Assembly (NCBI RefSeq): GCF_022346945.1 | Contig: NZ_JAKRNI010000001.1 | Coordinates: forward strand, 248,001 to 312,000 | Direction of reading: 5' to 3' | DNA: 64,000 nt | Origin: Microbacterium sp. ACRRU | GTDB taxonomy: Bacteria > Actinomycetota > Actinomycetes > Actinomycetales > Microbacteriaceae | Shown: in pieces, positions 45,298-64,000 of the stretch | How the letters are laid out: the number at the start of each line of letters is the position of its first letter | Numbering within the stretch: the first letter of the stretch is position 1 | Notes under the pieces: generated by a model | What the model saw: the letters and a program-made list of their open reading frames with translations, nothing else | The model's database searches: none | Told to the model about the DNA's origin: nothing | Position numbers and translations under genes: made by a program

Positions 45298-45312
45298 GGT
45301 CGCGGACCGCGG

Positions 45313-45810: not shown

Positions 45811-45816
45811 CCCTCC

Positions 45817-45829
45817 AGGCTAATAGCGT
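45817..45829. promoter_or_regulatory. Back-to-back -10 boxes of the DUF3515 gene and thiL
   Basis: On the minus strand TAGCCT (45822 to 45817) ends 6 bases before the DUF3515 GTG at 45810; on the plus strand TAGCGT (45824-45829) ends 6 bases before the thiL GTG at 45836. The whole 25 bp gap is filled by the two boxes, so both mRNAs are predicted leaderless and their polymerases would compete. Confidence 0.6.
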
Positions 45830-45835
45830 GGGGGA

Positions 45836-46828
45836 GTGACCGACGCCGAGCCGACCGTGGGAGACCTGTCCGAGGGACAGGTGCTGCGCGGCATCCTGGA
45901 CCGTCTTCCCGCCTCGACCGCGCCCGTCGGGCCTGGCGACGACGCCGCGGTGCTGGCGGTGCCCGATGGCAGGGTCGTCGCCACCACCGACACGCTCGTG
46001 CACGGTCCGGACTTCCGGCTCGCGTGGTCGTCCGCGGTCGACCTGGGGTACAAGGCCGCGGCGGTCAACCTCGCCGACGTCGCGGCGATGGGTGCCCGAC
46101 CCATCGCGCTGCTCGTGGCGCTGGCCATGCCCGACGAGACCCCGATCGCGTTCGTGCGCGGTCTCGCCGACGGGCTCGCGCAGGCGTGCGCCGAACTCGC
46201 GCCGGGCTGCGCCGTCGAGGGCGGTGACCTGACCGCCTCCGACACCCTGACGATCGCCGTCACGGCCCTGGGCAGCCTGGAAGGTCGCGCGCCCGTGCGC
46301 CGCTCCGGGGCGCGGCCCGGGGATGCGGTCCACGTCATCGGGGAGCTCGGTGTGGCGGCTCGGGGCCTGGATCTGCTGTTCACGCGATTCACGGATGCCG
46401 CGGGCTCACCGGTGGCGGTGACCCCGGAGGGTCGGGCGGCCCTCGACCCCGCAGACTCTTACGCGCTCGATCGACAGTTGCGCCCCCGCCCTCCGATCGC
46501 CGACGCGCTGCGGGCGGCGGACGCCGGTGCGACGGCGATGATGGACGTCTCCGACGGTCTCGCGCTGGATGCCACGCGCCTCGCGGACGCGTCGATGGTG
46601 ACGATCGCGTTCGACGCGGGGGCGCTGGGCGAGGACGTCGCGCTCGCGCTGGGCGGGGGAGAGGACCACGGCTTCCTCGCGACGTTCCCCGAGGGCGTCG
46701 TCGCCCCCGGGCGGCGTGTCGGGACCGTGCACCCGCGGGGCGAGGTCGCGGTCACGGTCGACGGTCGGCCCTGGACCGGCCACGCAGGCTGGGATCCCTA
46801 TCGCGACTGGGACGCCGGCCGCGGCTGA
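45836..46828 (+). CDS. thiL: Thiamine-monophosphate kinase
   Basis: Phosphorylates thiamine monophosphate to the active cofactor diphosphate. 330 residues of the PurM/ThiL fold: GDDAAVLAVPDGRVVATTDTL split in two parts (metal-binding GDDAA), KAAAVNLADVAAMGA, EGGDLTASDTLTIAVTALG and the late MDVSDGLALDATRLA motif are typical. The diphosphate is needed by the IlvB enzyme elsewhere in this window. GTG start at leaderless distance from TAGCGT. Convergent with rsmD; a large palindrome lies between. Confidence 0.94.
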   Translation: MTDAEPTVGDLSEGQVLRGILDRLPASTAPVGPGDDAAVLAVPDGRVVATTDTLVHGPDFRLAWSSAVDLGYKAAAVNLADVAAMGARPIALLVALAMPDETPIAFVRGLADGLAQACAELAPGCAVEGGDLTASDTLTIAVTALGSLEGRAPVRRSGARPGDAVHVIGELGVAARGLDLLFTRFTDAAGSPVAVTPEGRAALDPADSYALDRQLRPRPPIADALRAADAGATAMMDVSDGLALDATRLADASMVTIAFDAGALGEDVALALGGGEDHGFLATFPEGVVAPGRRVGTVHPRGEVAVTVDGRPWTGHAGWDPYRDWDAGRG

Positions 46829-46840
46829 CGTCCCCCTAGG

Positions 46841-46904
46841 GCGCGAGTCGCCAGGTTTTGTCGCCTGCCGCGCGCGGCAAGCGACAAAACTTGGCGACTC
46901 GCGC
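46841..46904. repeat. 64-bp near-perfect palindrome without spacer
   Basis: Two 32-bp halves (46841-46872 and 46873-46904) are reverse complements at 30 of 32 positions and abut directly. The AT-rich core GGTTTTGTCGC/GCGACAAAAC stands out. It lies between convergent thiL and rsmD. Confidence 0.88.
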
Positions 46905-46919
46905 GCGGCAGGACGGTGG

Positions 46920-47483
46920 TCAGCGGGACGGTCGGCCCCACCAGAGCGTCGTGTCGCCGTAGGTGCGATCGCGCTCGGGCTCGAGGCCGGCGGCCGCCCA
47001 GTCGGGGGCATGAGATCGTTTGGCGCGCTCGACGACCACCGCGGCGTCCGGGCTCAAGCGCGGAGCGAGGCTCGTGAGGACCCGAGCGATCTCGTCATCG
47101 GTGGCGTCGTAGGGCGGGTCGAGGAACACGAGGTCCCACTCCGCGGTTGCCGCCTCGACGTAGGTCGACGCGTTCGCGCGATGCACGCGCGCCACTCCTC
47201 CCACACCCGCAGACCGCAGGCGGTCGGCGTTCTTCCGGATGAGGGCGGCGGCCGGCGCGGACAGTTCGACGAGGTCGGCGGTGTCGGCGCCCCGGCTGAG
47301 GCTCTCGAGGCCGAGCGCGCCGGACCCCGCGTACAGGTCGAGCACGCGCGCGCCGGCGATGAGGTCGGCCGACTCCAGCGCGCCGAACAGCGACTCGCGC
47401 ACGCGGTCGCTGGTGGGCCGCGTGCCCTTGGCCGGGACGTCGAGGACCGTGCCGCCCGCGCGGCCGGAGATGATGCGAGTCAC
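46920..47483 (-). CDS. rsmD: 16S rRNA (guanine(966)-N2)-methyltransferase
   Basis: SAM-dependent methylation of G966 in 16S rRNA of the 30S subunit. 187 residues. N-terminal MTRIISGRAGGTVL is characteristic of RsmD; SAM motif VLDLYAGSGALGLESLSRG and catalytic DPPY in DLVFLDPPYD are present. GTG start preceded by GAGGAG and, at 6 bases, TAGGGT, so either leaderless or leadered initiation is possible. Divergent from recG; recG-rsmD-coaD clustering is common in bacteria. Confidence 0.94.
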   Translation of the reverse strand: MTRIISGRAGGTVLDVPAKGTRPTSDRVRESLFGALESADLIAGARVLDLYAGSGALGLESLSRGADTADLVELSAPAAALIRKNADRLRSAGVGGVARVHRANASTYVEAATAEWDLVFLDPPYDATDDEIARVLTSLAPRLSPDAAVVVERAKRSHAPDWAAAGLEPERDRTYGDTTLWWGRPSR

Positions 47484-47489
47484 CTCCTC

Positions 47490-47526
47490 ACCCTACAAAC
47501 CGTGTGTCCGGGGGGATGCCTAGACT
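47490..47526. promoter_or_regulatory. Divergent -10 boxes of rsmD and recG
   Basis: Minus strand TAGGGT (47495 to 47490) ends 6 bases before the rsmD GTG. Plus strand TAGACT (47521-47526) ends 6 bases before the recG ATG at 47533. The gap between genes is 49 bp. Confidence 0.55.
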
Positions 47527-47532
47527 CGGTGC

Positions 47533-49695
<2,163 letters not shown>

Positions 49696-49699
49696 TCGG

Positions 49700-49705
49700 T
49701 AGGCT
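49700..49705 (+). promoter_or_regulatory. -10 box of coaD, leaderless spacing
   Basis: TAGGCT ends 6 bases before the ATG and starts 4 bases after the recG stop, so coaD can be expressed separately from recG. Confidence 0.55.
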
Positions 49706-49711
49706 GGCGAT

Positions 49712-50209
49712 ATGAGTCCGCGGATCGCCGTCGTACCCGGTTCCTTCGACCCTCCGACGCGGGGGCACCTCGACGTGATCCGCCGGGCCGCCGGTCTGTT
49801 CGATCAGTTGCACGTGCTGGTCGTCCACAATCCCGGCAAAGAGGCGATGCTGCCCATCGCCCAGCGTCAGGCTCTCCTCGAGCAGTCGATCCAGGAGGAG
49901 GGCATCGAGGGCGACGTCATCGTCGCGGCGTGGAGCATGGGCCTGCTCGTCGATTACGCCACCGACGTGGGGGCACAGGTTCTCGTCAAGGGCATCCGGT
50001 CCCAGGTCGACGTCGCTTACGAGACTCCCATGGCGATCGTGAACCGCGACCTCGCGCACGTCGAGACGGTGTTCCTCCTGCCCGACCCTTCGCACGCGCT
50101 TGTCTCCAGCTCGCTCGTGCGTCAGGTCGCCGCGCTCGGCGGCGACGTCTCGCCCTACGTGCCGGGCCCGGTTGCTCGGTTCCTCGACACCGGCGCGCGC
50201 GGGCTCTGA
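49712..50209 (+). CDS. coaD: Phosphopantetheine adenylyltransferase
   Basis: Penultimate step of coenzyme A synthesis: adenylates 4'-phosphopantetheine. 165 residues. Nucleotidyltransferase motif [14 protein letters not shown] (T/HxGH-type at the start), [12 protein letters not shown] and the C-terminal [16 protein letters not shown] are family signatures. Sits between recG and the yceD-rpmF pair, as in many bacteria. Confidence 0.95.
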
Positions 50210-50248
50210 GCCCTCGTTCCGCACGGCCCCCGTTCAGGGCCGCGCGGG

Positions 50249-50254
50249 TAGCAT
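50249..50254 (+). promoter_or_regulatory. -10 box of the yceD-rpmF-rnc-mutM group
   Basis: TAGCAT ends 8 bases before the GTG of the yceD-like gene, without an intervening Shine-Dalgarno. Confidence 0.5.
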
Positions 50255-50262
50255 GGACGACC

Positions 50263-50823
50263 GTGAGAACCCACCGCCCCGGCCCCTTCCAGCTCCCCGT
50301 GCGCGATATCGAGCGCAAGCCGGGCGAGATGCGCGAGCACGAGCTCGACATCCCCGCTCCGGAGAAGTGGGGCGAGGGCCTCGTGTCCGTCGCCGCCGCG
50401 GAACCGCTCGAGATCGACGTGCGCCTGGAGTCGGTGCACGAAGGCATTCTCGCGTCGGGAACCGTCGACACCACGGCGACGGGAGTGTGCGGCCGTTGCC
50501 TCACCGACATCACCGAGCCTGTCGAAGTCGAGTTCCAGGAACTTTTCGCGTATCCTGGGGACGAAGCGAACGACTTCGAAGTTCAAGACGACCACGTGGA
50601 TCTTGAAAATCTGGTCCGGGATGCCATTGTCCTCTCGCTTCCGTTCCAGCCGGTGTGTCAGCCGGATTGCCTCGGGCTCGACCCGGTCACGGGTGAGAAG
50701 CTGACGGAGAGCGCCGGTGACACGGAGCAGACGCCTGTCGATCCTCGGTGGGCCGCGCTCCAGCAGTACACCCCAGACGACGGCGATGCGCTCCGCGCCG
50801 CCCCCAAGACAGAGAAGAGCTAG
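50263..50823 (+). CDS. YceD-family (DUF177) protein, ribosomal large-subunit linked
   Basis: 186 residues. The DUF177/YceD domain includes [20 protein letters not shown] in its centre and a Cys pair in VCQPDC; four cysteines in a C-X2-C / C-X3-C arrangement may bind zinc. Homologues sit before rpmF across bacteria and plants, and the plant protein is linked to 23S rRNA accumulation. GTG start is chosen from the -10 box and family N-terminus; the longer frame is a shadow of coaD. rpmF begins 2 bases after its stop. Confidence 0.88.
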
Positions 50824-50825
50824 CC

Positions 50826-51035
50826 ATGGCAGGTAACCCCCCGAAGCGGAAGGTCTCCCGCTCCAACACCCGCTCGCGTCGCGCGCAGTGGAAGGCCGAA
50901 GCCCCCGCGCTGGTCAAGACCATCGAGAACGGCAAGGTCGTCTACAGCCGCCCCCACCAGGCGAAGGTCGTCACCGACTCGCAGGGCACCGAGCTCTTCC
51001 TCGAGTACAAGGGCCGCAAGGTCGCCGACGTCTGA
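50826..51035 (+). CDS. rpmF: 50S ribosomal protein L32 (zinc-free form)
   Basis: Ribosomal protein of 69 residues. [20 protein letters not shown] at the start is typical of L32. There is no cysteine at all, so the zinc-ribbon of C+ L32 proteins is absent and this is the zinc-independent (C-) type. Two bases after the yceD-like gene and 10 bases before rnc. Confidence 0.95.
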
Positions 51036-51045
51036 TCAACGTCCG

Positions 51046-51726
51046 GTGACGCGTAACGCTGCGCTCATCGAGAAGCTCGGGGTCGACATCGACCCCGAGC
51101 TTCTTTCTCTTGCGCTGACCCATCGCTCGTTCGCTTACGAGAACGGCGGCATTCCGCACAACGAGCGCCTCGAGTTCCTCGGCGACTCGGTCCTCGGCCA
51201 AGCGGTGACGGTGCGTTTGTACACCCGGCATCCGGAGCTCGACGAGGGGAGCCTCGCCAAGCGACGCGCGAGCGTCGTGTCGACCGTGGCCCTCGCGGAG
51301 GTCGCGCGGGCCATCGGGCTCGGCGATCATGTGCGCCTCGGGCGCGGGGAGATCCTCACGGGCGGCCGTGACAAGGACTCGATCCTCGCCGACACGATGG
51401 AGGCGGTGATCGGGGCGACGTACCTGTCTGCGGGTCCTGACGCCGCGACCGGTCTGGTGCTGCGCCTGGTCGAGCCGCTGCTGGCGGATCCGGACCGTTA
51501 CGGCGCGGCGATGGATCCGAAGACCAGCCTTCAGGAGATCGCGGCGCGCCTCGCGCTCCCGGCGCCCGTGTACTCGGTGGCGGCGGCCGGTCCGGACCAC
51601 GATCGGCGTTTCACCGCGACGGTCGTCGTCGGCGACGTCACGGCCCAGGGGCTGGGGTCGAGCAAGAAGCACGCCGAGATGGCTGCGGCGCTCACGGCAT
51701 GGCGCGAGTTGAGCGCGCGTGCCTGA
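51046..51726 (+). CDS. rnc: Ribonuclease III
   Basis: Double-strand-specific endoribonuclease for rRNA processing and mRNA decay. 226 residues. Catalytic signature HNERLEFLGDSVLG with Glu40, Glu43 and Asp47, the second acidic patch DTMEAVIGATYL, and a C-terminal dsRNA-binding domain (about 155-225) ending in GLGSSKKHAEMAAALTAW. GTG start. Its stop overlaps the mutM start by 8 bases. Confidence 0.95.
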   Translation: MTRNAALIEKLGVDIDPELLSLALTHRSFAYENGGIPHNERLEFLGDSVLGQAVTVRLYTRHPELDEGSLAKRRASVVSTVALAEVARAIGLGDHVRLGRGEILTGGRDKDSILADTMEAVIGATYLSAGPDAATGLVLRLVEPLLADPDRYGAAMDPKTSLQEIAARLALPAPVYSVAAAGPDHDRRFTATVVVGDVTAQGLGSSKKHAEMAAALTAWRELSARA

Positions 51727-52609
51727 ACTCCCCGAGGTCGAGGTGGTCCGCGCCGGCCTCGAGCCGGCGGTCAGCGGCGCCCTCATCGTCTCGGTCGACG
51801 TGCGCGACGCCCGAGCGCTGACGCGACACACGGGCACGGCGGAGCACTTCGAGGCGGAGCTCACCGGTCGGCGGATCTCTGCCGCGGTGCGGCGCGGCAA
51901 GTTCCTGTGGATGCCGGTCGGAGACGACGAGGCGATCGTCGCCCACCTGGGGATGAGCGGTCAGATGCTTCTGCGCGTTCCCGGTGCGCCCGAGGAACGG
52001 CACGAACGTATCCGTGTCGAGCTGGAGAACCCGGTTCACGGAGATCTCTCCCTCGTCTTCGCCGACCAGCGCACGTTCGGGTCGCTCGCTCTCGATCGGC
52101 TCATCGACACGCCGGATGCCGCGCCCGCCGGTCGTGGCTCGCCGCTGTCGCGCGTGCCGACGCAGGTGGCCCATATCGCCCGTGACCCGCTCGATCCGGC
52201 TTTCGACGACGCGCGATTCCGGGCGCGGTTGGCGCGGACATCGTCGGGCATCAAGCGCGTGCTGTTGGATCAGACCGTGGCCAGCGGCATCGGCAACATC
52301 TACGCCGATGAGTCGCTGTGGGCCGCGCGCATTCACCCCGAGACCGCGGCATCCAATCTTCCGACCCGCTCGGTGAACCGCCTGCTGGCCGAGATCCGGG
52401 CGGTGCTCGAGAAGGCTCTCGCCGAGGGTGGGACGAGCTTCGACGCGCAGTACGTCAACGTCAATGGGCAGGCGGGGTACTTCGCGCACTCTCTGAACGC
52501 GTACGGCCGCACCGGTCAGCCGTGTCCGCGCTGCGGCCGGCCGATCGTGCGGGTGTCGTTCATGAACCGTTCGAGCCACTTCTGCCCGCGCTGCCAGCGC
52601 ATGCGCTGA
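51719..52609 (+). CDS. mutM: Formamidopyrimidine-DNA glycosylase
   Basis: Excises 8-oxoguanine and other oxidised purines and cleaves the abasic site. 296 residues. Pro2 is the catalytic nucleophile and Glu3 the acid in the N-terminal PELPEVEVVR; Lys61 in RRGKFLW contacts the phosphate. The H2TH region (VASGIGNIYADESLWAA) and C-terminal zinc finger (CPRCGRP ... FCPRCQ) are complete. GTG start, set by Pro2, overlapping rnc. Confidence 0.95.
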   Translation: MPELPEVEVVRAGLEPAVSGALIVSVDVRDARALTRHTGTAEHFEAELTGRRISAAVRRGKFLWMPVGDDEAIVAHLGMSGQMLLRVPGAPEERHERIRVELENPVHGDLSLVFADQRTFGSLALDRLIDTPDAAPAGRGSPLSRVPTQVAHIARDPLDPAFDDARFRARLARTSSGIKRVLLDQTVASGIGNIYADESLWAARIHPETAASNLPTRSVNRLLAEIRAVLEKALAEGGTSFDAQYVNVNGQAGYFAHSLNAYGRTGQPCPRCGRPIVRVSFMNRSSHFCPRCQRMR

Positions 52610-52638
52610 CCGGTTTCGCTGCTCGGCCGTTCGGGCGT

Positions 52639-52703
52639 GAGACCGCATCCCGCCGACGAATCCGCCGCGGGAAGCGGGACAGATGTCGGCGGGATGCGGT
52701 TTC
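52639..52703. repeat. Intergenic inverted repeat with 16-bp perfect core arms
   Basis: ACCGCATCCCGCCGAC (52642-52657) and its reverse complement (52685-52700), extendable to about 19 bp with wobble pairs; 27-base spacer. Between convergent mutM and the GNAT gene. Confidence 0.85.
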
Positions 52704-52726
52704 GGCGAAGTGCGTACGGCGTCGGA

Positions 52727-53809
52727 TCACGCGAGCGTCTTCTGCCACGCCCCCTCGTACGACGTCGGCACGAAGCCGATCGCCTCGTTGATCGACAGCA
52801 TGGGCCGGTTCTCCTCGGCGTTGTACGTCATGACGCGCGGCGACTCCGGGACCGCCTCGCGCCACGCGAGCAGCCCGGCGCACTTGACGAGCATGCCCAG
52901 GCGGTGGCCGCGGTGGGCAGCGACGACCAGGGTGTCCTCCTGGCTGGTCACGGTCGTCGGGTCCTTGCCGATGGCCAGTTCGTTGAACGCCGCGAGCTCG
53001 CCCGTGTCGACGTGCTGCGCCACGGTCACGAGGACGTGACGTTCGGCATCGGTGTACGTCCGTTCCCACTCGAGCACGCGGTTGGCGTCCCACTGCTCCT
53101 CGTCGTAGTCGAGACCCGCCGATGGTGCGTCGGTGACCATCCGTGACTTCATCGCGGCGTAGGCCTCGACGAACTCCGGGGGAGTGGGGAGGATCCACTG
53201 GATGACGCGGTATCCCGCGGCCGCCTCCTCCGCCTCGGCGAGAAGGCGGCGCAGATGGGGCTCGGCGCCGGTCAGGTCGAGGTAGCTCTGACGGACGATC
53301 TGCTCGAGCCGATATCCGGATGCCAGGAAGAACCGGGCCGCGTGGTCGAGGGGAATGTGGCCGAAGCCCGTCGGCGCGTCCAGCTGCGGACCGGCGACGG
53401 CGGGGTGCTCCGCCCACGACTGCAGGACGGTGCGACCGTGTTCCCGCGCGGTGCGCTCGATGAGGTCGTGGGCGGCACGGCCGATGCCGCGCCCCCACAC
53501 GTTGCGGCGCAGTTCGATGAGCCAGAAGGCCGTGCGTGCGCCCTCCTCCTGGGGGAGGTCGAGGCCGACGCGCCCCACCACCTCGCCGTCCACGACGGCC
53601 AACCACAGAAGGCGGATCTGCGAAGCGGTCGGCCGGTATGCGGGAAGGAGCTCGTCGGCGGGCATGGCGTGGTCGTCGTGTCCGGCGATCTCCGCGTAGA
53701 CGATGTTGCGTACGCGGGTCATCTCGCGGAAGTCGGCGGCGTCGGCGTCGTCGATGGAGGCGGGTATGCGGAGGGGGCGCAGCTCGAGGCCGGCCGGGAG
53801 GGTGATCAT
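52727..53809 (-). CDS. Tandem-GNAT acetyltransferase family protein
   Basis: 360 residues with two GNAT-like domains. The first (about 1-165) has the acetyl-CoA loop as NVWGRGIGRAAHDLIE; the second (about 190-360) has VVAAHRGHRLGMLVKCAGL and the tail NRPMLSINEAIGFVPTSYE. Such double-GNAT proteins are common in actinobacteria (mycothiol synthase is one member, but these motifs do not single it out), usually of unknown substrate. ATG at 53809 is chosen at the start of homology; a longer frame runs through non-coding sequence. It is last in a minus-strand run with a 93-residue gene and a 32-residue small ORF. Confidence 0.82.
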   Translation of the reverse strand: MITLPAGLELRPLRIPASIDDADAADFREMTRVRNIVYAEIAGHDDHAMPADELLPAYRPTASQIRLLWLAVVDGEVVGRVGLDLPQEEGARTAFWLIELRRNVWGRGIGRAAHDLIERTAREHGRTVLQSWAEHPAVAGPQLDAPTGFGHIPLDHAARFFLASGYRLEQIVRQSYLDLTGAEPHLRRLLAEAEEAAAGYRVIQWILPTPPEFVEAYAAMKSRMVTDAPSAGLDYDEEQWDANRVLEWERTYTDAERHVLVTVAQHVDTGELAAFNELAIGKDPTTVTSQEDTLVVAAHRGHRLGMLVKCAGLLAWREAVPESPRVMTYNAEENRPMLSINEAIGFVPTSYEGAWQKTLA

Positions 53810-53864
53810 GTCGGTTCTTTCGTCGGAGGGGAGAAGGGGTGGGGCCGGGGGTGGCCCCACCCGA

Positions 53865-54146
53865 TCAGAAGGGTCGGTGCGCGTGCATCGCGAGCCGCTG
53901 CCAGTCGGCCTCGCGCTGCTGACGTTCGAGGGCATTGTGGCGCGCCAGGTGCGCGGTCTCGGCGGACCGTGCGGCGCGGCGGGCCGCTTCATCGGCGCGG
54001 GCGGCGGCGCGCACCAGCAGCCAGACGCCGAGGCGAAGGGACAGGCGGTCGAGGGGGCCGAGGCGGCGCTCGGCCGAGGGCTCGACGACGGGGACAGAGA
54101 ACGCGGATGCCGTGTGCTGCGGCGCGCGCGTGAGCGAAGTGTTCAT
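53865..54146 (-). CDS. Small protein with one hydrophobic segment, unknown
   Basis: 93 residues. The centre (about 31-50: GPLDRLSLRLGVWLLVRAA) is a short amphipathic or membrane-associated stretch, followed by an Ala/Arg/Glu-rich helix (ARADEAARRAARSAE) and a Gln/Arg-rich end. GGAG precedes the ATG. Its place between a strongly promoted small ORF and a GNAT gene on the same strand suggests one operon. No family recognised. Confidence 0.65.
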   Translation of the reverse strand: MNTSLTRAPQHTASAFSVPVVEPSAERRLGPLDRLSLRLGVWLLVRAAARADEAARRAARSAETAHLARHNALERQQREADWQRLAMHAHRPF

Positions 54147-54211
54147 GCGGAGGCTCCGGTGGAGAGAGGCGAGGAAGAGGCCGAGTCCGGCGTGGCCGGG
54201 ACGGGCGAAGA

Positions 54212-54226
54212 GGGCTTAAGAAGCCC
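54212..54226 (-). promoter_or_regulatory. Small hairpin between the 32-residue ORF and the 93-residue gene
   Basis: On the minus strand GGGCTT-CTT-AAGCCC forms a 6 bp stem with a 3-base loop, followed by TCTTCG. Possibly a partial terminator or processing site that reduces expression of downstream genes. Confidence 0.4.
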
Positions 54227-54294
54227 GGGAGCACGGCATCCGATGATCAGATGACGGTGCGGGTGCGGAGACGCGAAGTCTCAACGCGGCAAGG

Positions 54295-54393
54295 TCACGC
54301 GCGACGCGCTGGCATGCCGACGGCGGTGGTCACTCCACGCAGGGGTGCAGACAGCACGGGGGTGGCGATGAAGCCGGTGGTGTTGCGAATCAT
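54295..54393 (-). CDS. 32-residue small ORF with near-perfect Shine-Dalgarno and strong promoter
   Basis: A 32-codon ORF starting ATG at 54393; the peptide begins MIRNTTGFIATPVLSAP and ends MPARRA. AAAGGAGGT lies 7 bases before the ATG and matches the 16S anti-Shine-Dalgarno, the best site in the window. A consensus-like promoter (TTGACA, 18 bases, TAGCGT) stands about 40 bases further up. The product is hydrophobic in the middle and basic at the end, without Cys or obvious fold; no precise function can be given. It could be a small protein in its own right or a translated leader for the two genes behind it. Too short for usual gene prediction. Confidence 0.6.
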   Translation of the reverse strand: MIRNTTGFIATPVLSAPLRGVTTAVGMPARRA

Positions 54394-54429
54394 GGTGTGA
54401 CCTCCTTTCGACGTCGGTTGCGACCCCCG

Positions 54430-54459
54430 ACGCTAGCGGTGTCGTTCAGCGAATGTCAA
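54430..54459 (-). promoter_or_regulatory. Strong promoter of the small-ORF/93-residue/GNAT operon
   Basis: Minus strand: TTGACA (54459 to 54454), an 18-base spacer, TAGCGT (54435 to 54430). This is the only exact TTGACA paired with a TANNNT that I find in the window. It drives away from smc. Confidence 0.75.
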
Positions 54460-54545
54460 GCGAAGATCCAGAAACGGGTGACATCCGGGCGCGTCGAACG
54501 CGCGACCAATCGGCCAGCCACCGCGGGATTCCGCGGGTCGTCGGG

Positions 54546-54551
54546 TAGCGT
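54546..54551 (+). promoter_or_regulatory. -10 box of smc
   Basis: TAGCGT, about 36 bases before the ATG at 54588, giving a leader of roughly 30 bases with GGGAAGG as ribosome site. Confidence 0.5.
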
Positions 54552-54587
54552 GAAGCGGAATTCCACCTGTCGGGAAGGCGCATCCGT

Positions 54588-57500
54588 ATGCACCTGAAGA
54601 GCGTCACGCTGAAGGGCTTCAAGTCCTTCGCGCAGTCGACGACGTTCGCGCTGGAACCCGGGGTCACATGCATCGTCGGCCCGAACGGGTCGGGCAAGTC
54701 CAACGTCGTCGACGCGCTGGCCTGGGTCATGGGGGAGCAGGGCGCGAAGACCCTCCGCGGCGGCAAGATGGAGGACGTCATCTTCGCGGGAACCTCCACG
54801 CGCGGTCCGCTCGGTCGCGCCGAGGTGCAGCTCACCATCGACAACTCCGACGGCGCGCTGCCCATCGAGTACAGCGAGGTGACGATCAGCCGCACCCTGT
54901 TCCGCACCGGTGCCAGCGAGTACGCGATCAACGGACAGACGTGCCGGCTCCTGGACGTGCAGGAGTTGCTCAGCGACTCCGGTCTCGGACGCGAGATGCA
55001 CGTGATCATCGGGCAGGGGCGCCTGGACAGCGTGCTGCAAGCGTCGGCGGAGGAGCGCCGTGGCTTCATCGAGGAGGCCGCGGGAATCCTCAAGCACCGT
55101 CGTCGCAAAGAGAAGACGGTCCGCAAGCTCGAGGCGATGGAAACCAACCTCACGCGGCTGAGCGACCTCGCGGGTGAGCTGCGTCGTCAGTTGAAGCCGC
55201 TCGGCAAGCAGGCGGAGATCGCCCGGGAAGCGGCGACGATCGCCGCGATCGTCCGAGACGCCAAGGCCCGTCTCTTCGCCGACGAACTCGTGCGACTCCG
55301 GCATGAGCTGCGAGACGCCGCCGCCGCCGAGAGCGAGCGACACACCGAGCGCCTCATGCTGCAGGATCAGGCGGACGGCATCCGGCGGAAGGTCGAACGC
55401 CTCGAGGAGGAACAGCGGTCGGAGGCGGTGGACCGGGCTCGACGGGTGGCCTTCTCGCTCGAGCAGGTGCAGGAACGGTTGCGGGGCCTGTACACGCTCG
55501 CCGGTCAGCGCCTCACCCTGCTCGCCGACGATGAGGGTGACGCGTCGACGGTGGCACCGACGGTGACCCAGGCCATGATCGACGACCTGCGCACCGAGAT
55601 CGACGAGATCGCGGCGGGCCTGGGTGATGCGCAGGATGCCGCGTCGGAGGAGGCCCGCGGCGTCGCGCGGGCACGGGCGGAGCTGGACGCTCTCGACGCC
55701 GACATCGCGGCGCAGAGCGCGCTCGTGTCGGAGCATGACATGAAGCTCACGGCGCTGCAGGGATCGGCTGACGCCGCGGCCTCCGGCCTCGCGGCGGTGC
55801 GCGCCGCGGTCGAACGGCAGCAGCGGGCGCTCGACGCGGCGCTCGAACGACGCGCCGAAGCGGAGGAGGCCCGCGCGGCGCTCGACCCCGACGTCACCCC
55901 GGAGGAGTCCACGGCCGAGCACGCTGCGGCCTACGAGCGCGCTCAGCGTGAGACCAACGACACCGAGACAGAGGTCGCGCAGCTGCGGGACCGCCTCCAC
56001 GCCGCCGAGCGTGAACGCGACGCGTTGACGGCGCAGACAGCCGCGCTCGGGCGCGCGCTCGACGTGCGCAACGCGGCGGCGGACCTCGTCGCGAGTGGGA
56101 CCGATGGCATCCGGGGTCTGGTCGGCGATGCCGTCAAGGTCACGTCCGGGTATGAGGCGGCGATCGCCGCGGCGCTGGGGTCACTCGCCGAGGGGCTTCT
56201 CGTGGAAGACGGCGCGGCGGCGTTCGCTGCCGCCCACGCGGCCCGCGACGGCGAACTCGGCGTCGTCGAGATCGCGATCGCCGATGCCCCCGATGCCGAC
56301 GGCGCCGCCGCGATCGACGGGGGAGTGCGTGCGGTCGACGTCGTCACAGCCCCGCCCGGGGTGCGGGGAATCCTGTCGGGCGTCGTCATCGTCGACGACA
56401 TGTCGTCGGCCGAGGCACTGCGCCCGGTCCTCGCGTCGGCTCAGCCGGGAACGGCCGTCGTCACGCGCGACGGAGCGGTCCTCACCGCGCGCACGCTGCG
56501 GGCCGGCTCGGGGTCGGGGCGTTCGCGTCTCGAGCTGGCGGCCGAGCGCGACGCAGCGGCGGAAAGGCTGTCGGAGATCTCGGGGGTCGCAGATTCCCTG
56601 CGGGAGGCCCTCTCGGAAGCTCAGGGGAAGCTCACCGCTGCCCGTGCGCGCACGAAGGAGACCCTCGCGACACTGCGCGCGCACGACGCCGCGCTGGCCG
56701 CGCACGCGGAGAAGCTCAATCGCGTGACCGTTCGGCACGAGGCGGCCGTCGCCGAGTGCGAGCGTCTCGCGGCGGGTCTTGTTCAGGCGCAGGCGGCGGT
56801 CGCCGACGCCGAAGAGACCGCACGCGTGGCCGACGAGGCCCTCGCCCGCGCGCGAGAGGCGCCCCGTCCGATGTTGGATGCGTCAGCGAGGGAGGGGATG
56901 CTCGCCGACCTCGAGACCGCGCGCGAGAGGGAGATGCGCGCGCGCCTCGACATCGAGACGCTCCGCGAGCGCGTGCGTGCCGGTGAGGTCCGCATCGTTC
57001 AGCTGGAGCAGCAGCGCGAGCGTGAGCGTGCCGCGGCGGCCGCCGCTGCGCGCCGAGCCGTCATCCGGCGGGCGCAGCGCGAAGTCGCGGCCGATGTCGC
57101 CGCGGCGCTGCCCGCGCTGCTGGATTCGGTCGACAGGTCGGTCAGCCAGGCGCGGGTCGAGCTCGCCGCGGCAGAGACGGCCCGTTCGGCCGTCACCGCT
57201 GATCTGAGCAAGGCCCGCGCCGAGGAAGCGGCGGTGCGCGATCGACTTGCTCGTCTCACCGAGAGCGTCCACGGACTCGAGCTGCAGATGCACGAGAAGA
57301 AGCTCCACGTCACGAGCCTGCTCGAACGCGTGCAGTCCGAGCTGTCGCTGGACGAAGACATCCTCGTCTCCGAGTATGGTCCCGACCAGGACGTTCCCCG
57401 CGCGGACGGCGAGGGCTCCGAGCCGTTCGACCGTTCAGCGCAGAAGCGCCGCCTGCAGGAGGCGGAGCGCAAACTCGCTCAGCTCGGGCGCGTGAACCCG

Positions 57501-58115
57501 CTCGCGCTGGAGGAGTTCGCCGCGCTCGAACAACGGCACGCCTTCCTGACCGAGCAGCTCGCCGATCTCCAGCAGACGCGGGCTGATCTGCAGACGATCA
57601 TCGCGGAACTCGACGAGCGCATGCAGACGATCTTCGTCGCCGCCTTCGAGGACACCCGCACGGCGTTCGGTGAGATCTTCCCGATCCTGTTCCCCGGTGG
57701 TGCCGGCAGCATTGCGCTGACCGACCCCGAGAACCCCCTCACCACGGGCATCGAGGTGGCCGTACGCCCGGTCGGCAAGAAGATCGAGCGGCTGTCGTTG
57801 CTCTCGGGCGGAGAGCGCTCGCTCGCGGCCGTCGCCTTCCTCACGGCGATCTTCACGGCACGGCCGAGTCCGTTCTACATCCTCGACGAGGTCGAGGCCG
57901 CTCTCGACGACGCCAACCTGGGCCGGCTCCTCGGGGTGTTCGAGAAGCTGCGCGAGAGCAGCCAGCTCATCGTCATCACGCACCAGAAGCGGACGATGGA
58001 GATCGCCGACGCGCTCTACGGCGTGTCGATGCGCCAGGACGGTGTCTCGGCGGTGGTGGGACAGCGCGTCGGCGACCGTGCCCGCACCGCGCCGGAACCG
58101 GCCCCCGTAAGCTGA
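54588..58115 (+). CDS. smc: Chromosome segregation protein SMC
   Basis: ATPase of the SMC-ScpAB condensin. 1175 residues: N-terminal head with Walker A GPNGSGKSN (31-39), coiled coil (about 165-500), hinge (about 500-630), second coiled coil, C-terminal head with signature LSGGERSLAAVAFLTAIF near residue 1073 and Walker B YILDEVEAALDDANLG. scpA and scpB are not here. ftsY starts 4 bases after the stop, as is typical in actinobacteria. Confidence 0.97.
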   Translation: MHLKSVTLKGFKSFAQSTTFALEPGVTCIVGPNGSGKSNVVDALAWVMGEQGAKTLRGGKMEDVIFAGTSTRGPLGRAEVQLTIDNSDGALPIEYSEVTISRTLFRTGASEYAINGQTCRLLDVQELLSDSGLGREMHVIIGQGRLDSVLQASAEERRGFIEEAAGILKHRRRKEKTVRKLEAMETNLTRLSDLAGELRRQLKPLGKQAEIAREAATIAAIVRDAKARLFADELVRLRHELRDAAAAESERHTERLMLQDQADGIRRKVERLEEEQRSEAVDRARRVAFSLEQVQERLRGLYTLAGQRLTLLADDEGDASTVAPTVTQAMIDDLRTEIDEIAAGLGDAQDAASEEARGVARARAELDALDADIAAQSALVSEHDMKLTALQGSADAAASGLAAVRAAVERQQRALDAALERRAEAEEARAALDPDVTPEESTAEHAAAYERAQRETNDTETEVAQLRDRLHAAERERDALTAQTAALGRALDVRNAAADLVASGTDGIRGLVGDAVKVTSGYEAAIAAALGSLAEGLLVEDGAAAFAAAHAARDGELGVVEIAIADAPDADGAAAIDGGVRAVDVVTAPPGVRGILSGVVIVDDMSSAEALRPVLASAQPGTAVVTRDGAVLTARTLRAGSGSGRSRLELAAERDAAAERLSEISGVADSLREALSEAQGKLTAARARTKETLATLRAHDAALAAHAEKLNRVTVRHEAAVAECERLAAGLVQAQAAVADAEETARVADEALARAREAPRPMLDASAREGMLADLETAREREMRARLDIETLRERVRAGEVRIVQLEQQRERERAAAAAAARRAVIRRAQREVAADVAAALPALLDSVDRSVSQARVELAAAETARSAVTADLSKARAEEAAVRDRLARLTESVHGLELQMHEKKLHVTSLLERVQSELSLDEDILVSEYGPDQDVPRADGEGSEPFDRSAQKRRLQEAERKLAQLGRVNPLALEEFAALEQRHAFLTEQLADLQQTRADLQTIIAELDERMQTIFVAAFEDTRTAFGEIFPILFPGGAGSIALTDPENPLTTGIEVAVRPVGKKIERLSLLSGGERSLAAVAFLTAIFTARPSPFYILDEVEAALDDANLGRLLGVFEKLRESSQLIVITHQKRTMEIADALYGVSMRQDGVSAVVGQRVGDRARTAPEPAPVS
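58108..58113 (+). promoter_or_regulatory. -10 box of ftsY inside the 3' end of smc, leaderless spacing
   Basis: TAAGCT overlaps the last codons of smc and ends 6 bases before the ftsY ATG. Allows ftsY expression independent of smc. Confidence 0.5.
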
Positions 58116-58119
58116 GGGA

Positions 58120-58992
58120 ATGGCTGAGAACTCCTGGTCGCTCGGCCGCGCGCTGCGCGGGCTGTTCGTCAAACCCACGATCGACGAGACCACGTGGGAC
58201 GACCTCGAGACGGCGCTGCTGACCGCCGACTTCGGCCCCGACGTCACCGAGCGGCTCATCGACGAGTTGCGCGAGAAGGTCGAGCGCTACCGCACCACGG
58301 ACCCGCGCGACCTGCAGCGCATGCTGCGCGAGACGCTCGAGGAGCATTTCGCCAAGTTCGACACGACGCTGCGCCTCACCGAGCGTCCCGCGGTAGTTCT
58401 CGTCGTGGGCGTGAACGGCGTCGGCAAGACCACGACGATCGGCAAGTTCGCCAAGTTCCTGCAGCGGTACGGACGTTCCGTCGTGGTCGGTGCGGCCGAC
58501 ACGTTCCGCGCGGCCGCCGTCGACCAGCTGGCGACCTGGGCCGAGCGTGGGGGAGCCACGATCGTGCGCCCGCAGCACGAGGGTCAGGATCCGGCATCCG
58601 TCGCCTTCCAGACCGTCGCGCACGCGAAGGAGACGGGAACCGAGATCGTGCTCGTCGACACCGCGGGCCGCCTGCACACCAAGGGCGGTCTGATGGACGA
58701 GCTCGGCAAGATCAAGCGCGTGATCGAGAAGCAGGCGCCCATCAGCGAGGTGCTTCTCGTTCTGGACGCCACCACGGGGCAGAACGGCCTCATGCAGGCC
58801 CAGGCCTTCCTCGACAGCGCCGGCGTCACGGGCCTCGTGCTCACCAAACTCGACGGCTCGGCCAAGGGCGGATTCGTGTTGGCGGTTCAGGAGCGCACCG
58901 GTATCCCGGTGAAGCTCCTGGGGCAGGGCGAGGGGATCGGCGACCTCACGGGCTTCACGCCGCACGTGTTCGCCGCGTCGCTGGTGGACTGA
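58120..58992 (+). CDS. ftsY: Signal recognition particle receptor FtsY
   Basis: GTPase docking SRP-ribosome complexes to the membrane. 290 residues, with a short N domain (1-85) and the G domain: G1 GVNGVGKTTT (97-106), DTFRAAAVDQL, DTAGRLHTK (G3) and TKLDGSAKGG (G4 onward). It lacks the long acidic A domain of E. coli FtsY, as is common in Gram-positives. Its partner Ffh is in the same window at 62.4 kb. Confidence 0.95.
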   Translation: MAENSWSLGRALRGLFVKPTIDETTWDDLETALLTADFGPDVTERLIDELREKVERYRTTDPRDLQRMLRETLEEHFAKFDTTLRLTERPAVVLVVGVNGVGKTTTIGKFAKFLQRYGRSVVVGAADTFRAAAVDQLATWAERGGATIVRPQHEGQDPASVAFQTVAHAKETGTEIVLVDTAGRLHTKGGLMDELGKIKRVIEKQAPISEVLLVLDATTGQNGLMQAQAFLDSAGVTGLVLTKLDGSAKGGFVLAVQERTGIPVKLLGQGEGIGDLTGFTPHVFAASLVD

Positions 58993-59062
58993 CCCCATAC
59001 CGCATGCGTCGCGGCGGGCGGGTCGCCTTCCGCGATACCGGTCGGGCTGGTTTCATGGGGGA

Positions 59063-59563
59063 ATGGCGATCGAGCACGACTTCTTCGGACTCCTCGAGTC
59101 AGGGCCCGACGGGTCGATCTTCTGGTCAGAGAACGTGGAGTTCGGCGATCAGAGTGTCACCGTCGACCTCACGGCGCCCGATCAGGACGACGTGTCCGTC
59201 GACGCGCTCGACGTCGCCGCAGCGATGATCTCGTCACTGGAGGCCATCGACCTCGCCGCGCGCAACGCCATGGTGAACGAGCTGGACGACCGCACGAGCG
59301 AGGTGACGGAGTACATCCTCCAGCAGCAGGCGACCCTGGGCGATGAGTTGGAGGATCTGCTCGTCGACCCCTCCGGCGACACCCACATCGACGTGATCAA
59401 GTCGCTGCAGCTCATGAGCATGACGATCCTCGCCGATGAGCACGGGGGAGCCGACCCGTTCGCCGTCCTCGAGTACGCGCTCGATCCGGACGCCACGGAC
59501 GACGTGCTGCTGGTCAATCTCGCGTCCGACGGACAGGTGCAGTCGGTCACGAGCGCCGACTGA
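59063..59563 (+). CDS. Conserved hypothetical protein, DUF2004-like
   Basis: 166-residue acidic cytoplasmic protein without signal or membrane segment. It opens with HDFFGLLESGPDGSIFWSE and contains an alpha-helical middle with LLVDPSGDTHIDVIKSLQL. This resembles DUF2004-type proteins, of unknown function; I hold that assignment loosely. It ends 1 base before the next gene's start, so the two are likely co-translated. Confidence 0.75.
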   Translation: MAIEHDFFGLLESGPDGSIFWSENVEFGDQSVTVDLTAPDQDDVSVDALDVAAAMISSLEAIDLAARNAMVNELDDRTSEVTEYILQQQATLGDELEDLLVDPSGDTHIDVIKSLQLMSMTILADEHGGADPFAVLEYALDPDATDDVLLVNLASDGQVQSVTSAD

Positions 59564-59564
59564 C

Positions 59565-59993
59565 GTGCAGACCTTCCTTCCCTTCCCCTCGTTCGTCGAT
59601 TCGGCTCGCGCCCTCGACAGCCGCCGCCTCGGCAGACAGCGCGTCGAGACGTTTCAGCTGCTGAGGGCTCTCACGGTGCCGGACCACGGATGGCGTCATC
59701 ATCCCGCGGCCAAGATGTGGGACGGGCACCTGCCCGCTCTGGTGTCGTACGGGCTGGTGATGACGGATGAATGGGTGGCGCAGGGCCGCGCCGACACCGT
59801 GCGCGAGAAGATCCGCGTGTTCGCCCCGGAGGTCGACGGGATGCCGCAGGATGCCCTGGAGCTGCCGCCGTGGCTCGGCGACGAGGCGTTCCACCTCGCG
59901 CACCGCTCCAATCTCGTCCGCAAGGACGCGGAGTTCTACCGTCTGCGCTTCGGCGACGTGCCGGACGACCTGCCCTACATCTGGCCGGTCTGA
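59565..59993 (+). CDS. Pyrimidine dimer DNA glycosylase-like protein (MSMEG_6728 family)
   Basis: 142 residues. FLPFPSFVDSARALDSRRLG, QRVETFQLLRAL and HHPAAKMWDGHLPALVSYG are characteristic of the actinobacterial MSMEG_6728 family, related to the T4 endonuclease V-type Pyr_excise domain. Endonuclease V uses an N-terminal Thr; here translation begins V(M)-Gln-Thr, leaving Thr at position 3, so catalysis would need N-terminal trimming or a different mechanism. Convergent with lipA, 1-base gap. DNA repair role is inference from the family. Confidence 0.8.
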   Translation: MQTFLPFPSFVDSARALDSRRLGRQRVETFQLLRALTVPDHGWRHHPAAKMWDGHLPALVSYGLVMTDEWVAQGRADTVREKIRVFAPEVDGMPQDALELPPWLGDEAFHLAHRSNLVRKDAEFYRLRFGDVPDDLPYIWPV

Positions 59994-59994
59994 G

Positions 59995-61029
59995 TCAGAC
60001 CGCCTGGGCGAACCCGGCGTCGGCCGCGGCGATGTCCTTGGCCAGGTGGGCCAGGTGCGGGGGGATGTCGCGTCCCTTCGACATCATCGACTGCGCCCAC
60101 AGGCGTCCGGCGCGGTAGGACGAGCGCACGAGCGGCCCCGCGAGAACACCGAGGAATCCGATGCGCTCCGCCTCCTCCTTGAACTCCACGAACTCCGCGG
60201 GCTTGACCCAGCGCTGCACGGGCAGGTGCCGCGGGCTCGGACGAAGGTACTGGGTGATCGTGATGATGTCGGTACCGGCTTCACGCAGATCCTGCAGTGC
60301 CTGAACGACTTCCTCCGGCTCCTCGCCCATGCCGAGGATGAGGTTCGACTTCGTGATGAGTCCCGCGTCGCGTGCGGCCGTGAGGACGCCGAGCGAACGC
60401 TCGTACCGGAAGGCGGGACGGATGCGCTTGAAGATGCGCGGGACGGTCTCGACGTTGTGCGCGAACACCTCGGGCCGCGACGAGAAGACCTCCTCCAGCA
60501 GGCTCGGGTTGCCGGAGAAGTCCGTCGCGAGGATCTCCACTCCGGTGCCGGGGTTGTCCGCATGGATGCGGCGCACCGTCTCGGCGTGCAGCCACGCGCC
60601 CTCGTCGGGGAGGTCGTCTCGCGCGACGCCGGTCACCGTGGCGTATCGCAGCTGCATGCGGGACACGCTCTCGGCGACGCGGCGCGGTTCGTCGCGGTCG
60701 TAGTCGGCGGGCTTGCCCGTGTCGATCTGGCAGAAGTCGCAGCGCCGCGTGCACTGGGAACCGCCGATGAGGAACGTCGCCTCGCGATCCTCCCAGCACT
60801 CGAAGATGTTGGGGCAGCCGGCCTCCTGGCAGACCGTGTGCAGTTCCTCGGTCTTCACGAGGTTCTGCAACGCGGTGTACTCGGGCCCGAGGCGTGCCTT
60901 GGTCTTGATCCATTCGGGCTTGCGCTCGATGGGGGTCTGCGCGTTGCGGACCTCGAGGCGCAGCAGCTTCCGACCACCCGGGGCGGTGGATGCCGAACCA
61001 CCGGTGTTGCCGCTCCCGCACGCGCTCAC
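59995..61029 (-). CDS. lipA: Lipoyl synthase
   Basis: Radical-SAM enzyme inserting two sulfurs into octanoyl groups to form lipoate on carrier domains. 344 residues. The auxiliary [4Fe-4S] cluster ligands are Cys67, Cys72 and Cys78 ([12 protein letters not shown]) and the SAM cluster is Cys93-X3-Cys97-X2-Cys100 (CTRRCDFC). The first 20 residues are a Gly/Ser-rich extension. The GTG start at 61029 overlaps the lipB stop by 4 bases, and the far longer open frame upstream is a lipB shadow. Followed by a 1-base convergent gap to the glycosylase-like gene. Confidence 0.96.
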
Positions 61030-61664
61030 GCCGCGACCGCCGTGTACTCGGCGCGGAAGGCGTTCTCGACGCTGGCGACGATGTCGGCGGGGGAGACGTC
61101 GGCACCGACGACCTCGCTCACCGTCGTGACACCGGCATCCGTGATCCCGCAGGGGACGATGCCTCGGAATCCGGCCAGGGAGTTGTCGCAGTTGACTGCG
61201 AACCCGTGCATGGTGACACCTTTCTCGACGCGCACGCCGATCGCCGCGACTTTGTCGACACCCAGTGGTCGGCGTACCCATACGCCGCTGCGGCCGTCGA
61301 CGCGGAGGCCCTCGACGCCGTGCGCGGCGAGGGCGGAGATGAGCAGGGACTCGAGGCGGCGGACGTGGGCCACGACGTCCATCGGCTCGGGGAGGCGCAC
61401 GATCGGGTAGCCCACGAGCTGGCCGGGGCCGTGCCAGGTGATCTTCCCCCCGCGATCGACATCGACCACCGGCGTGCCGTCGGTCGGGCGCTCGTGAGCC
61501 TCGGTGCGCTTGCCGGCGGTGTAGACGCTCTCGTGCTCGAGGAGGAGCAACGTGTCGCGTCGGGCGCCGGCCACCACGTCGGCGTGCACCGCGCGCTGCA
61601 GCGCCCACCCGTCGAGGTAGGGCACGTAGTCGGGGGCGAGCCCCACGTGCTGAATGTCGAGCAT
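61026..61664 (-). CDS. lipB: Octanoyl-[ACP]:protein N-octanoyltransferase
   Basis: Transfers octanoate from ACP to lipoyl domains, the step before LipA. 212 residues from the ATG at 61664, preceded by GGGAG. Family residues: [35 protein letters not shown], the catalytic lysine in [11 protein letters not shown] and Cys in VNCDNSL. An alternative start at 61703 would place the operator inside the gene and lacks a site. lipB-lipA form one operon; the TetR gene on the opposite strand shares the regulatory gap. Confidence 0.95.
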
Positions 61665-61677
61665 CGCCGCTCCCGCC

Positions 61678-61698
61678 TTGTTGGATTGCGTCCAACAA
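61678..61698. promoter_or_regulatory. Perfect inverted-repeat operator between lipB and tetR
   Basis: TTGTTGGA-N5-TCCAACAA, 8 bp arms. On the minus strand its end coincides with TATTGT, a plausible lipB -10 box, so a bound regulator would block lipBA. Likely the binding site of the divergent TetR protein. Confidence 0.75.
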
Positions 61699-61717
61699 TA
61701 CACGGTGGCACGCGTTC

Positions 61718-61723
61718 TAGGCT
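61718..61723 (+). promoter_or_regulatory. -10 box of the 61730 tetR gene, leaderless spacing
   Basis: TAGGCT ends 6 bases before the ATG at 61730. Confidence 0.6.
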
Positions 61724-61729
61724 GTCTGC

Positions 61730-62275
61730 ATGGCCACCGAATCTCGCAGCGGTCGCCCTCGCGCCTCGTCCCGCGAGGTGCTCTCCGAGGCGGCGTGCGA
61801 GCTGTTCCTGGAGCAGGGATACGACGCCACGTCCGTCTCCGACATCACGCGGCGCGCCGGGGTCAGCCGGTCGAGCTTCTTCAACTACTTCTCGGCCAAG
61901 AGCGATGTCCTGTGGTCGGGCTTCGACGCGCGGGTCGACGCGGCGGTCGCCGAGCTGCGCGACGGCGGGGCGATCGACGCGGTGCTGTGCGGCATCGGCG
62001 ACGGGCTCGCGCCGGACGCCCTCGCCCTCGCGATCGTCAACGCGGATGCCATGGGTATCGCCGCCGAACTGGACCGCGACCGTGCCATCCGGCAGTTCCG
62101 CCTGCAGCGGGAGGCCGCCGCACGTCTGGTGCGCGACGGCGCCGAGCCTCTCGCGGCCCAGGTCCGCGCCGGGGCGTTGTCGGCCGCCGTGCTCGCCGCG
62201 GTCTGGGCCTGGGCCGACCACACCGCCGGTCGTTCGCTGACCCAGACGCTGTCGGAGGCCCTGTCCGCGGCGTGA
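61730..62275 (+). CDS. TetR-family regulator divergent from lipBA
   Basis: 181 residues. N-terminal HTH (about 10-55): LFLEQGYDATSVSDITRRAG and VSRSSFFNYFSAKSDVLW. The C-terminal domain is Ala/Leu-rich and gives no ligand hint. Its 66 bp gap to lipB contains a perfect 8+8 bp palindrome over the lipB promoter, so it may regulate lipoate synthesis, a linkage I cannot confirm from known systems. The stop is followed by 148 bp before ffh. Confidence 0.85.
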   Translation: MATESRSGRPRASSREVLSEAACELFLEQGYDATSVSDITRRAGVSRSSFFNYFSAKSDVLWSGFDARVDAAVAELRDGGAIDAVLCGIGDGLAPDALALAIVNADAMGIAAELDRDRAIRQFRLQREAAARLVRDGAEPLAAQVRAGALSAAVLAAVWAWADHTAGRSLTQTLSEALSAA

Positions 62276-62408
62276 GGGGGCGTCATCCGCTGTTCCCGTT
62301 GACCGCACACCCTCCGCCCCGCCGACCGGGGAGGGTCGAGGTCCGCCGGATCGCGGGGGTCACGCGACGGCCCCGACCGGCGCGGCGGCGTCCCGCGTCG
62401 GCTCCGCG

Positions 62409-62414
62409 TAAACT
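62409..62414 (+). promoter_or_regulatory. -10 box of ffh
   Basis: TAAACT ends 9 bases before the ATG at 62424, slightly more than the usual leaderless spacing. No Shine-Dalgarno is visible between. Confidence 0.45.
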
Positions 62415-62423
62415 CTTCCCATC

Positions 62424-63968: not shown

Positions 63969-64000
63969 CACCGCCCGCACGGCCGCGCACGCCGAGAAGC

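Follow-up and report, generated by a model that had tools for sequence, protein, structure and literature searches.

The element at 54295–54459 on the minus strand of the window (i.e., of the whole 64,000-nucleotide stretch of Microbacterium sp. ACRRU DNA analysed here) is, in our judgement, probably a cis-acting translated leader, an upstream open reading frame (uORF) attenuator, for an operon encoding a small arginine-rich protein and a tandem-GNAT acetyltransferase. Namely, comparison between genomes shows that its promoter, Shine-Dalgarno sequence (SD) and reading frame are conserved and that a pairing of its initiation region with late codons of the same uORF covaries; the helix itself, which we call a clamp, is predicted to form. 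By analogy with known leaders, the element would act as a sensor of translation initiation governing the downstream genes. A preliminary description of this DNA had suggested either an abundant small protein or a leader that acts on the two genes behind it through a hairpin at 54212. The leader is supported in kind, by the conserved ATG, frame and stop, by reduced synonymous change and by the maintained RNA pairing, whereas the control itself we infer.

The short frame with a strong promoter and SD that had been described at 54295–54459 of the minus strand is confirmed, in its coordinates as well as in its signals. In particular, the promoter (54430–54459, minus strand) consists of TTGACA at 54459–54454, an 18-base spacer and TAGCGT at 54435–54430, as judged from the sequence and from the -10 spacing across leaders, and the pattern TTGACA-N17/18-TANNNT occurs on both strands of the 64-kb window only this once. 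The SD, AAAGGAGGT (54400–54408, minus strand), is likewise the only copy on either strand of the window, and AGGAGG-N5-9-ATG occurs there three times. The 7-base gap between SD and ATG given in the preliminary description holds when counted from AGGAGG and becomes 6 bases when counted from AAAGGAGGT. The uORF, assigned from the open reading frame list, conservation and frame, starts with the ATG at 54393 and comprises 32 codons and a TGA (MIRNTTGFIATPVLSAPLRGVTTAVGMPARRA; 54295–54393, minus strand). It is followed on the same strand by the gene for a 93-residue arginine-rich protein (53865–54146), taken from the open reading frame list, and by the 360-residue tandem-GNAT acetyltransferase gene (52727–53809), recognised by family match; the neighbours on the two sides are, by context, the divergent smc (54588–58115, plus strand) and mutM (51719–52609, plus strand). 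A generic promoter scan of 45000–64000 gave nothing at the uORF promoter because it required a TATAAT-like -10, and TAGCGT fits the relaxed TANNNT. Across the organism's own genome the combined promoter and SD pattern has 8 matches, as opposed to 3 for a reversed control, and only the uORF copy is convincing by eye. Upstream of the -35 (about 54495–54460 in the window) there is also a weakly conserved box, CGCCCG ... GAATCTG ... GCTTGAC, seen in the 121 leaders discussed below, which is possibly an activator site or an smc promoter element.

The preliminary description had made its case depend on conservation among relatives, and the ATG, frame and stop are indeed conserved in them. Among 198 genus genomes, 21, the window's own included, gave matches to the uORF peptide (E < 2e-4), weaker matches looking like chance; ATGATTCGC, AGGAGG and TTGAC are kept in all 21 loci and the position of the stop in 20 of the 21. 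In the remaining locus, L008, a one-base deletion abolishes the stop and fuses the uORF in frame with the small gene, giving 179 codons. Upstream of more distant GNAT genes the peptide is different, and the promoter, SD and short ORF stand in the same place in 9 of 9 loci inspected. Using a strict rule that set no ORF length, we found that promoter, SD and uORF precede this tandem-GNAT gene at 51 of 60 additional genus loci, smc being detected in 58 of these 60 stretches; a relaxed rule, applied afterwards and without a chance control, recovers 8 of the 9 misses. In a set of 121 strict-rule leaders, TANNNT lies 17 or 18 bases past the -35 hexamer in every case (18 in 113 leaders, 17 in 8), whereby it should be noted that the set was chosen by TTGAC and AGGAGG, so that the strict rules shape the sample, with the -10 not a criterion, and that the species are related and the leaders hence not fully independent. 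The uORF is 28–45 codons long in 81 of 83 leaders, and a residue pattern finds the small gene after at least 56 of the 83. The GNAT gene is present in 179 of 196 genus genomes (E <= 1e-60), with smc, mutM or both beside it in all 30 GNAT loci examined. A literature search restricted to open-access full texts found nothing on the locus or the element, and this absence carries little weight given that restriction.

The pairing that we consider central joins GGUNNCC, i.e. the end of the SD and the spacer, with GGNNACC in late codons of the same uORF. Folding of the leaders of the window's clade places the SD and spacer opposite late uORF codons. In the window, the 5' arm of this helix (54394–54417, minus strand; CCGACG...GGAGGTCACACC) was located by folding and comprises the SD end and the spacer up to the ATG, plus an outer CCGACG; the 3' arm, GGAGTGACCACCGCCGTCGG (54317–54336, minus strand), located by folding and by genus-wide pairing, occupies codons 20–26, and elsewhere lies 44–104 bases past the ATG. 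In a duplex test of 81 leaders against codon-shuffled uORFs, the mean z is -1.95 and 53% of leaders are individually at p < 0.05, the window's own duplex being better than shuffled at z -2.3 (p 0.017). Defining a heptamer as the seven bases that start at the last GG of AGGAGG, and seeking its complement from codon 9 on with G-U allowed, we find that 60 of 83 leaders hold a full 7/7 complement within their uORF, compared with 15.8% when the uORF is taken from a leader whose heptamer differs; the 83 show 20 distinct heptamers. The window's own leader belongs to the 23 lacking a full match and pairs 6 of 7 bases, and the others in this group carry bulges or mismatches. Leaders that were not used to form the idea behave in the same way, with full matches in 31 of 38 vs. 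17.8%. Note that these 38 are the new ones from 80 loci, of which 32 were identical to earlier loci and 10 had no strict leader (6 of these on contigs that start at most 409 bases from the GNAT gene), and that some of the 38 are closely related to earlier leaders.

A further test avoids circularity by locating the 3' arm through GGNNACC alone and only then comparing its NN with that of the 5' arm. Among the 121 leaders, 69 have GGTNNCC, and leaving out 16 without a GGNNACC site and 3 with several gives 50 single-site leaders; in 49 of these the NN are complementary, while 5000 permutations give a mean of 21.9 and a maximum of 34. Moreover, GGNNACC is found in 50% of uORFs vs. 20% of codon-shuffled ones. 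That said, the case for pairing rests on the genus-wide set, because the signal inside the window's clade is weak, and the idea of strong covariation within that clade was rejected. Namely, 89.8% of cells are paired there as opposed to 88.3% in shuffles, five pairs show double changes vs. 4.5 (256 of 500 shuffles reach five), cells with double changes number 16 vs. 9.3, and an arrangement slid by one column scores as high in covariation (0.088 vs. 0.084).

Partition-function models of 117 of the 121 leaders predict how the clamp would behave as the RNA grows. In particular, the probability that GGUNNCC is unpaired falls from 0.53 with 12 codons made to 0.05 with the complete uORF; with codon-shuffled uORFs it stands at 0.39, and 115 of the 117 leaders lie below their shuffled counterparts. 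In other words, the initiation region of the uORF is predicted to pair with the uORF's own codons. AAAGG, the 5' half of the SD, on the other hand stays open (0.57 to 0.54; 0.42 with shuffled uORFs), the openness of the AUG is unchanged in the models (0.48), and that of the whole SD hexamer is 0.33 vs. 0.30 for shuffled sequences, being lower in just 44 of 117 leaders. The idea that the uORF buries the SD completely was thus rejected, as shuffled uORFs bury it just as much, and we speak of a spacer clamp instead of SD sequestration because, relative to shuffled sequences, only the spacer is specifically closed. Taken as a whole, the uORF region gains only modest folding stability over shuffled sequences (mean z -1.11).

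Is the uORF actually translated? Counted from the ATG, the 3' arm keeps to a single frame in all 60 matched leaders, over 13 distances, and in all 31 held-out matched leaders, over 10 distances. Since the arm is locked in frame in spite of the varied distance, the uORF, which has a strong SD of its own, appears to be read. The open frame by itself was not used as evidence because the +2 frame is also open for at least 28 codons in 80% of 83 leaders. The synonymous-site comparison that had been proposed for this frame shows reduced change, with a pS of 0.21 in the uORF vs. 0.43 in the 93-residue gene (20 clade sequences). In the same sequences the dN/dS of the uORF is 0.67 overall, exactly as in the +2 control frame, and 0.49 in the neighbouring gene; by part it is 0.85 for codons 4–16, 0.51 for codons 17–23, 0.98 for codons 24–32, i.e. 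the arm, and 0.42 for codons 33–37. Codons 2–3 are invariant in the clade and second codon positions are as variable as third ones. This pattern fits a translated but weakly constrained peptide lying over a constrained RNA.

These numbers also bear on the view that the product is a functional, abundant microprotein. The conserved start, SD and frame would agree with it, as would the 66–88% identity of the 19 other clade peptides to the window's copy and the lower dN/dS of codons 17–23 and 33–37. However, the overall dN/dS equals that of the +2 frame, the peptide diverges almost completely across the genus and is unrecognisable between species groups, and a family search with the uORF returned no match, so that across the group we do not see purifying selection on the amino acids. 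The abundant small protein of the preliminary description is therefore little supported, and we consider it very unlikely. A motif that does recur in the peptide, GTVSFGA, is the reading of GGGGACCGTCTCCTTCGGC, that is, of the arm itself, together with CUCCUU opposite the SD in many species; what looks like a peptide motif can thus be the imprint of an RNA helix. Much the same applies to an amino-acid attenuator or a nascent-peptide arrest leader. The peptide is threonine-rich in the window's clade, but inspection by eye finds neither a genus-wide residue run or motif, except where the RNA arm dictates one (GTVSFGA), nor a conserved run of one codon type, and the downstream genes are not those of amino-acid biosynthesis; we would give this reading only the slightest chance.

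For the translated leader that we favour, one can envisage the following sequence of events. Early in transcription the strong SD would be free. Once transcribed, the late codons would pair through GGNNACC with the GGUNNCC formed by the SD end and the spacer before the AUG, and this helix would close the initiation site, except when a ribosome has loaded beforehand and goes on melting these codons. Behaving in this way, the clamp would let the leader report whether ribosomes initiate and flow quickly: prompt, continuing initiation would be told apart from delayed or blocked initiation, as an elongating ribosome would melt the helix and the clamp would otherwise close. The open or closed state would then decide whether transcription gets to the downstream genes, probably by way of premature, Rho-dependent termination behind the uORF, where the sequence is C-rich and contains hairpins. 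Poor translation would raise downstream expression, if the analogy with the S. meliloti duf1127 and whiB7/wblC leaders, as described in the available parts of the respective reports (PMC12218461, PMC11550727), applies. One could also argue that the clamp merely tunes the yield of a constitutively strong leader, by mRNA protection or insulation, and senses nothing. This would also agree with stable structures and with a promoter that looks strong and constitutive, but a frame-locked uORF whose late codons track changes in the spacer exceeds the needs of a stabiliser, and for this reason we regard mere tuning of yield as unlikely.

The stretch in which an initiation-sensing leader would be read out has a hairpin directly 3' of the uORF stop (GCG-TT-GAGAC...GTCTC-CGC; 54265–54287, minus strand), found by folding. 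The second hairpin, GGGCT-TCTTA-AGCCC (54212–54226, minus strand; sequence and folding), is the one to which the preliminary description had assigned control. It does exist and partly covaries in close relatives (as helix 4, with 66.9% of cells paired and three pairs changed on both sides), whereas the element conserved throughout the genus is the pairing of SD and spacer with late codons. Between the uORF and the small gene there are 127–250 bases with 44% C and 26% G (56 leaders), whose hairpins have a mean z of about -1.3. C exceeds G in all 56 stretches, which is weak evidence for Rho because it does so on average in coding parts too. About 10–18 bases past the uORF stop, e.g. in L055, L061 and L223, there is a partly conserved motif resembling AGGRGAACTCYGYCC, accompanied by a GGGC hairpin, and a loose pattern, used without a chance control, finds this motif in 36 of 62 non-clade leaders. 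Its ungapped form, CAGGGGAGAASTCYGYCC, is a poor probe, given that in a class sample it matched 1 of 394 genomes and 0 of the 12 genus genomes included, the sole match sitting within a long ORF. No U-tract terminator turned up in a generic scan of the window's leader.

In erm and cat attenuators, a leader ORF with a 5' helix precedes a resistance gene. The present element resembles these and the ARE-ABCF leaders (as presented in the available part of PMC10201436) in its leader ORF with a 5', or 1:2, helix and in a possible resistance enzyme encoded next; a drug-stalled ribosome on the uORF would, in such a scheme, free segment 2 for segment 3 and so release the SD of the next gene. The difference is that 2:3 and 3:4 helices were not detected here. 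Namely, in 56 leaders the 3' arm has no partner downstream (mean z +0.5, 0/56 below -2), the SD of the next gene is not sequestered by upstream sequence (mean z 0.09, 3/56 below -2), and the 5' arm leans only slightly towards downstream pairing (mean z -0.49, 5/56 below -2). An erm-type switch is for these reasons quite improbable, the more so as the peptide is too variable for one conserved stall motif.

We file the leader under uORF-mediated attenuation, as a new form. Closest to it in working, with no homology claimed, is the S. meliloti duf1127 leader (PMC12218461). According to the available part of that report, the uORF of the duf1127-1 leader has a ribosome-binding site that pairs with C-rich codons belonging to the uORF itself, termination before a small arginine-rich gene depends on uORF translation, and the leader has been proposed to monitor ribosome availability. 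A uORF before a small arginine-rich gene and an initiation region paired with its own codons are therefore common to both, while the partner differs, being the first ten codons, with a C-rich Rho-type element, in S. meliloti and late codons here. Furthermore, the present case is one of Actinobacteria, of an acetyltransferase operon and of genus-wide covariation, the last of which is not reported for duf1127 in the available part. The actinobacterial whiB7/wblC leader has a uORF whose translation is said to suppress the next gene and whose disturbance by antibiotics is said to induce it (PMC11550727, available part). That leader, as described there, uses an intrinsic terminator and antiterminator and serves a transcription factor; here, neither a U-tract terminator (in the scan of the window's leader) nor an antiterminator (in the 3' arm pairing of 56 leaders) was found, and the genes that follow encode a GNAT and an arginine-rich protein instead of a WhiB-like one. 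In M. tuberculosis, the pe20 Mbox leader with Rv1805A combines a small uORF, translational control and Rho-dependent termination (PMC12810186), and in the ppe2 B12-switch uORF translation is needed for the next gene (PMC11260477). Both, in the available parts of these reports, have ligand-binding aptamers, whereas Rfam covariance models gave 0 matches at E <= 5 over 53700–54700.

More speculatively, the spacer clamp may represent a distinct actinobacterial class of initiation sensor, a possibility that we put forward tentatively. In such a class, late codons would be selected to pair with the spacer and the 5' half of the SD would be left open, so that the 30S subunit could dock without accommodating; each elongating ribosome would open the clamp for the next, yielding an all-or-none switch that tunes a drug- or stress-modifying GNAT operon to the translational state, and the leader would be exchanged between Microbacterium and Propionibacteriaceae along with the GNAT gene. 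Leader ORFs that measure translation usually come to light singly, by experiment, and here 121 strict-rule leaders share one element; there is enough compensatory change to tell the selected features, frame and spacer pairing, apart from the peptide, which is not selected. What is more, the proposed sensing predicts translation inhibitors as a possible class of inducer and a physiological role for the tandem-GNAT family, which is so far unassigned.

Outside the genus, five contigs (L218, L221, L223, L237 and L238), filed as Micropruina, Propionicimonas or unplaced Actinomycetota, carry the SD, a short uORF and the post-stop motif ahead of the GNAT gene, with a small ORF between uORF and GNAT in L237; neither mutM nor the smc start was detected beside GNAT in the five. 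Their host is uncertain because they are metagenome bins. L223 and L237 have all 7 clamp bases matched, L238 has 6 and L221 has 5; L218 failed the strict rule, and GGTGACC was noticed by eye at its codons 5–7. In a family sample, the GNAT gene was found in 140 of 299 genomes and 45 of 85 genera (E <= 1e-50), and the uORF near it in 0 of the 25 family loci outside the genus among the 30 loci listed for these 140 genomes, its own included; in a distant family it was found in 0 of 10 loci.

As for the downstream genes themselves, the 93-residue protein has family matches only below the cut-off, and its two weak matches in the own genome are not convincing as paralogues. Between its gene and the GNAT gene, folding predicts a GC-rich, terminator-like hairpin without a U tract (53837–53862, minus strand), which in relatives is very stable and GC-rich, though variable in sequence (mean z -3.6, 78% of 54 below -2). 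This suggests that leader and small gene form a unit with read-through into GNAT. The family assignment of the GNAT protein was confirmed by a family search; among solved structures, the one closest to it in sequence is that of ORF14 from the clavulanic acid cluster (2wpw, E 2.8e-16), and its closest match among named records is from M. testaceum FXH-28 (88%). One to three tandem GNAT copies lie between mutM and smc, varying by Microbacterium species (L051, L053–L060, L121–L123; G864). Finally, a record filed as Planococcus sp. APC 4015 (L214) contains a Microbacterium-like GNAT-mutM segment and is probably misnamed or contaminated.
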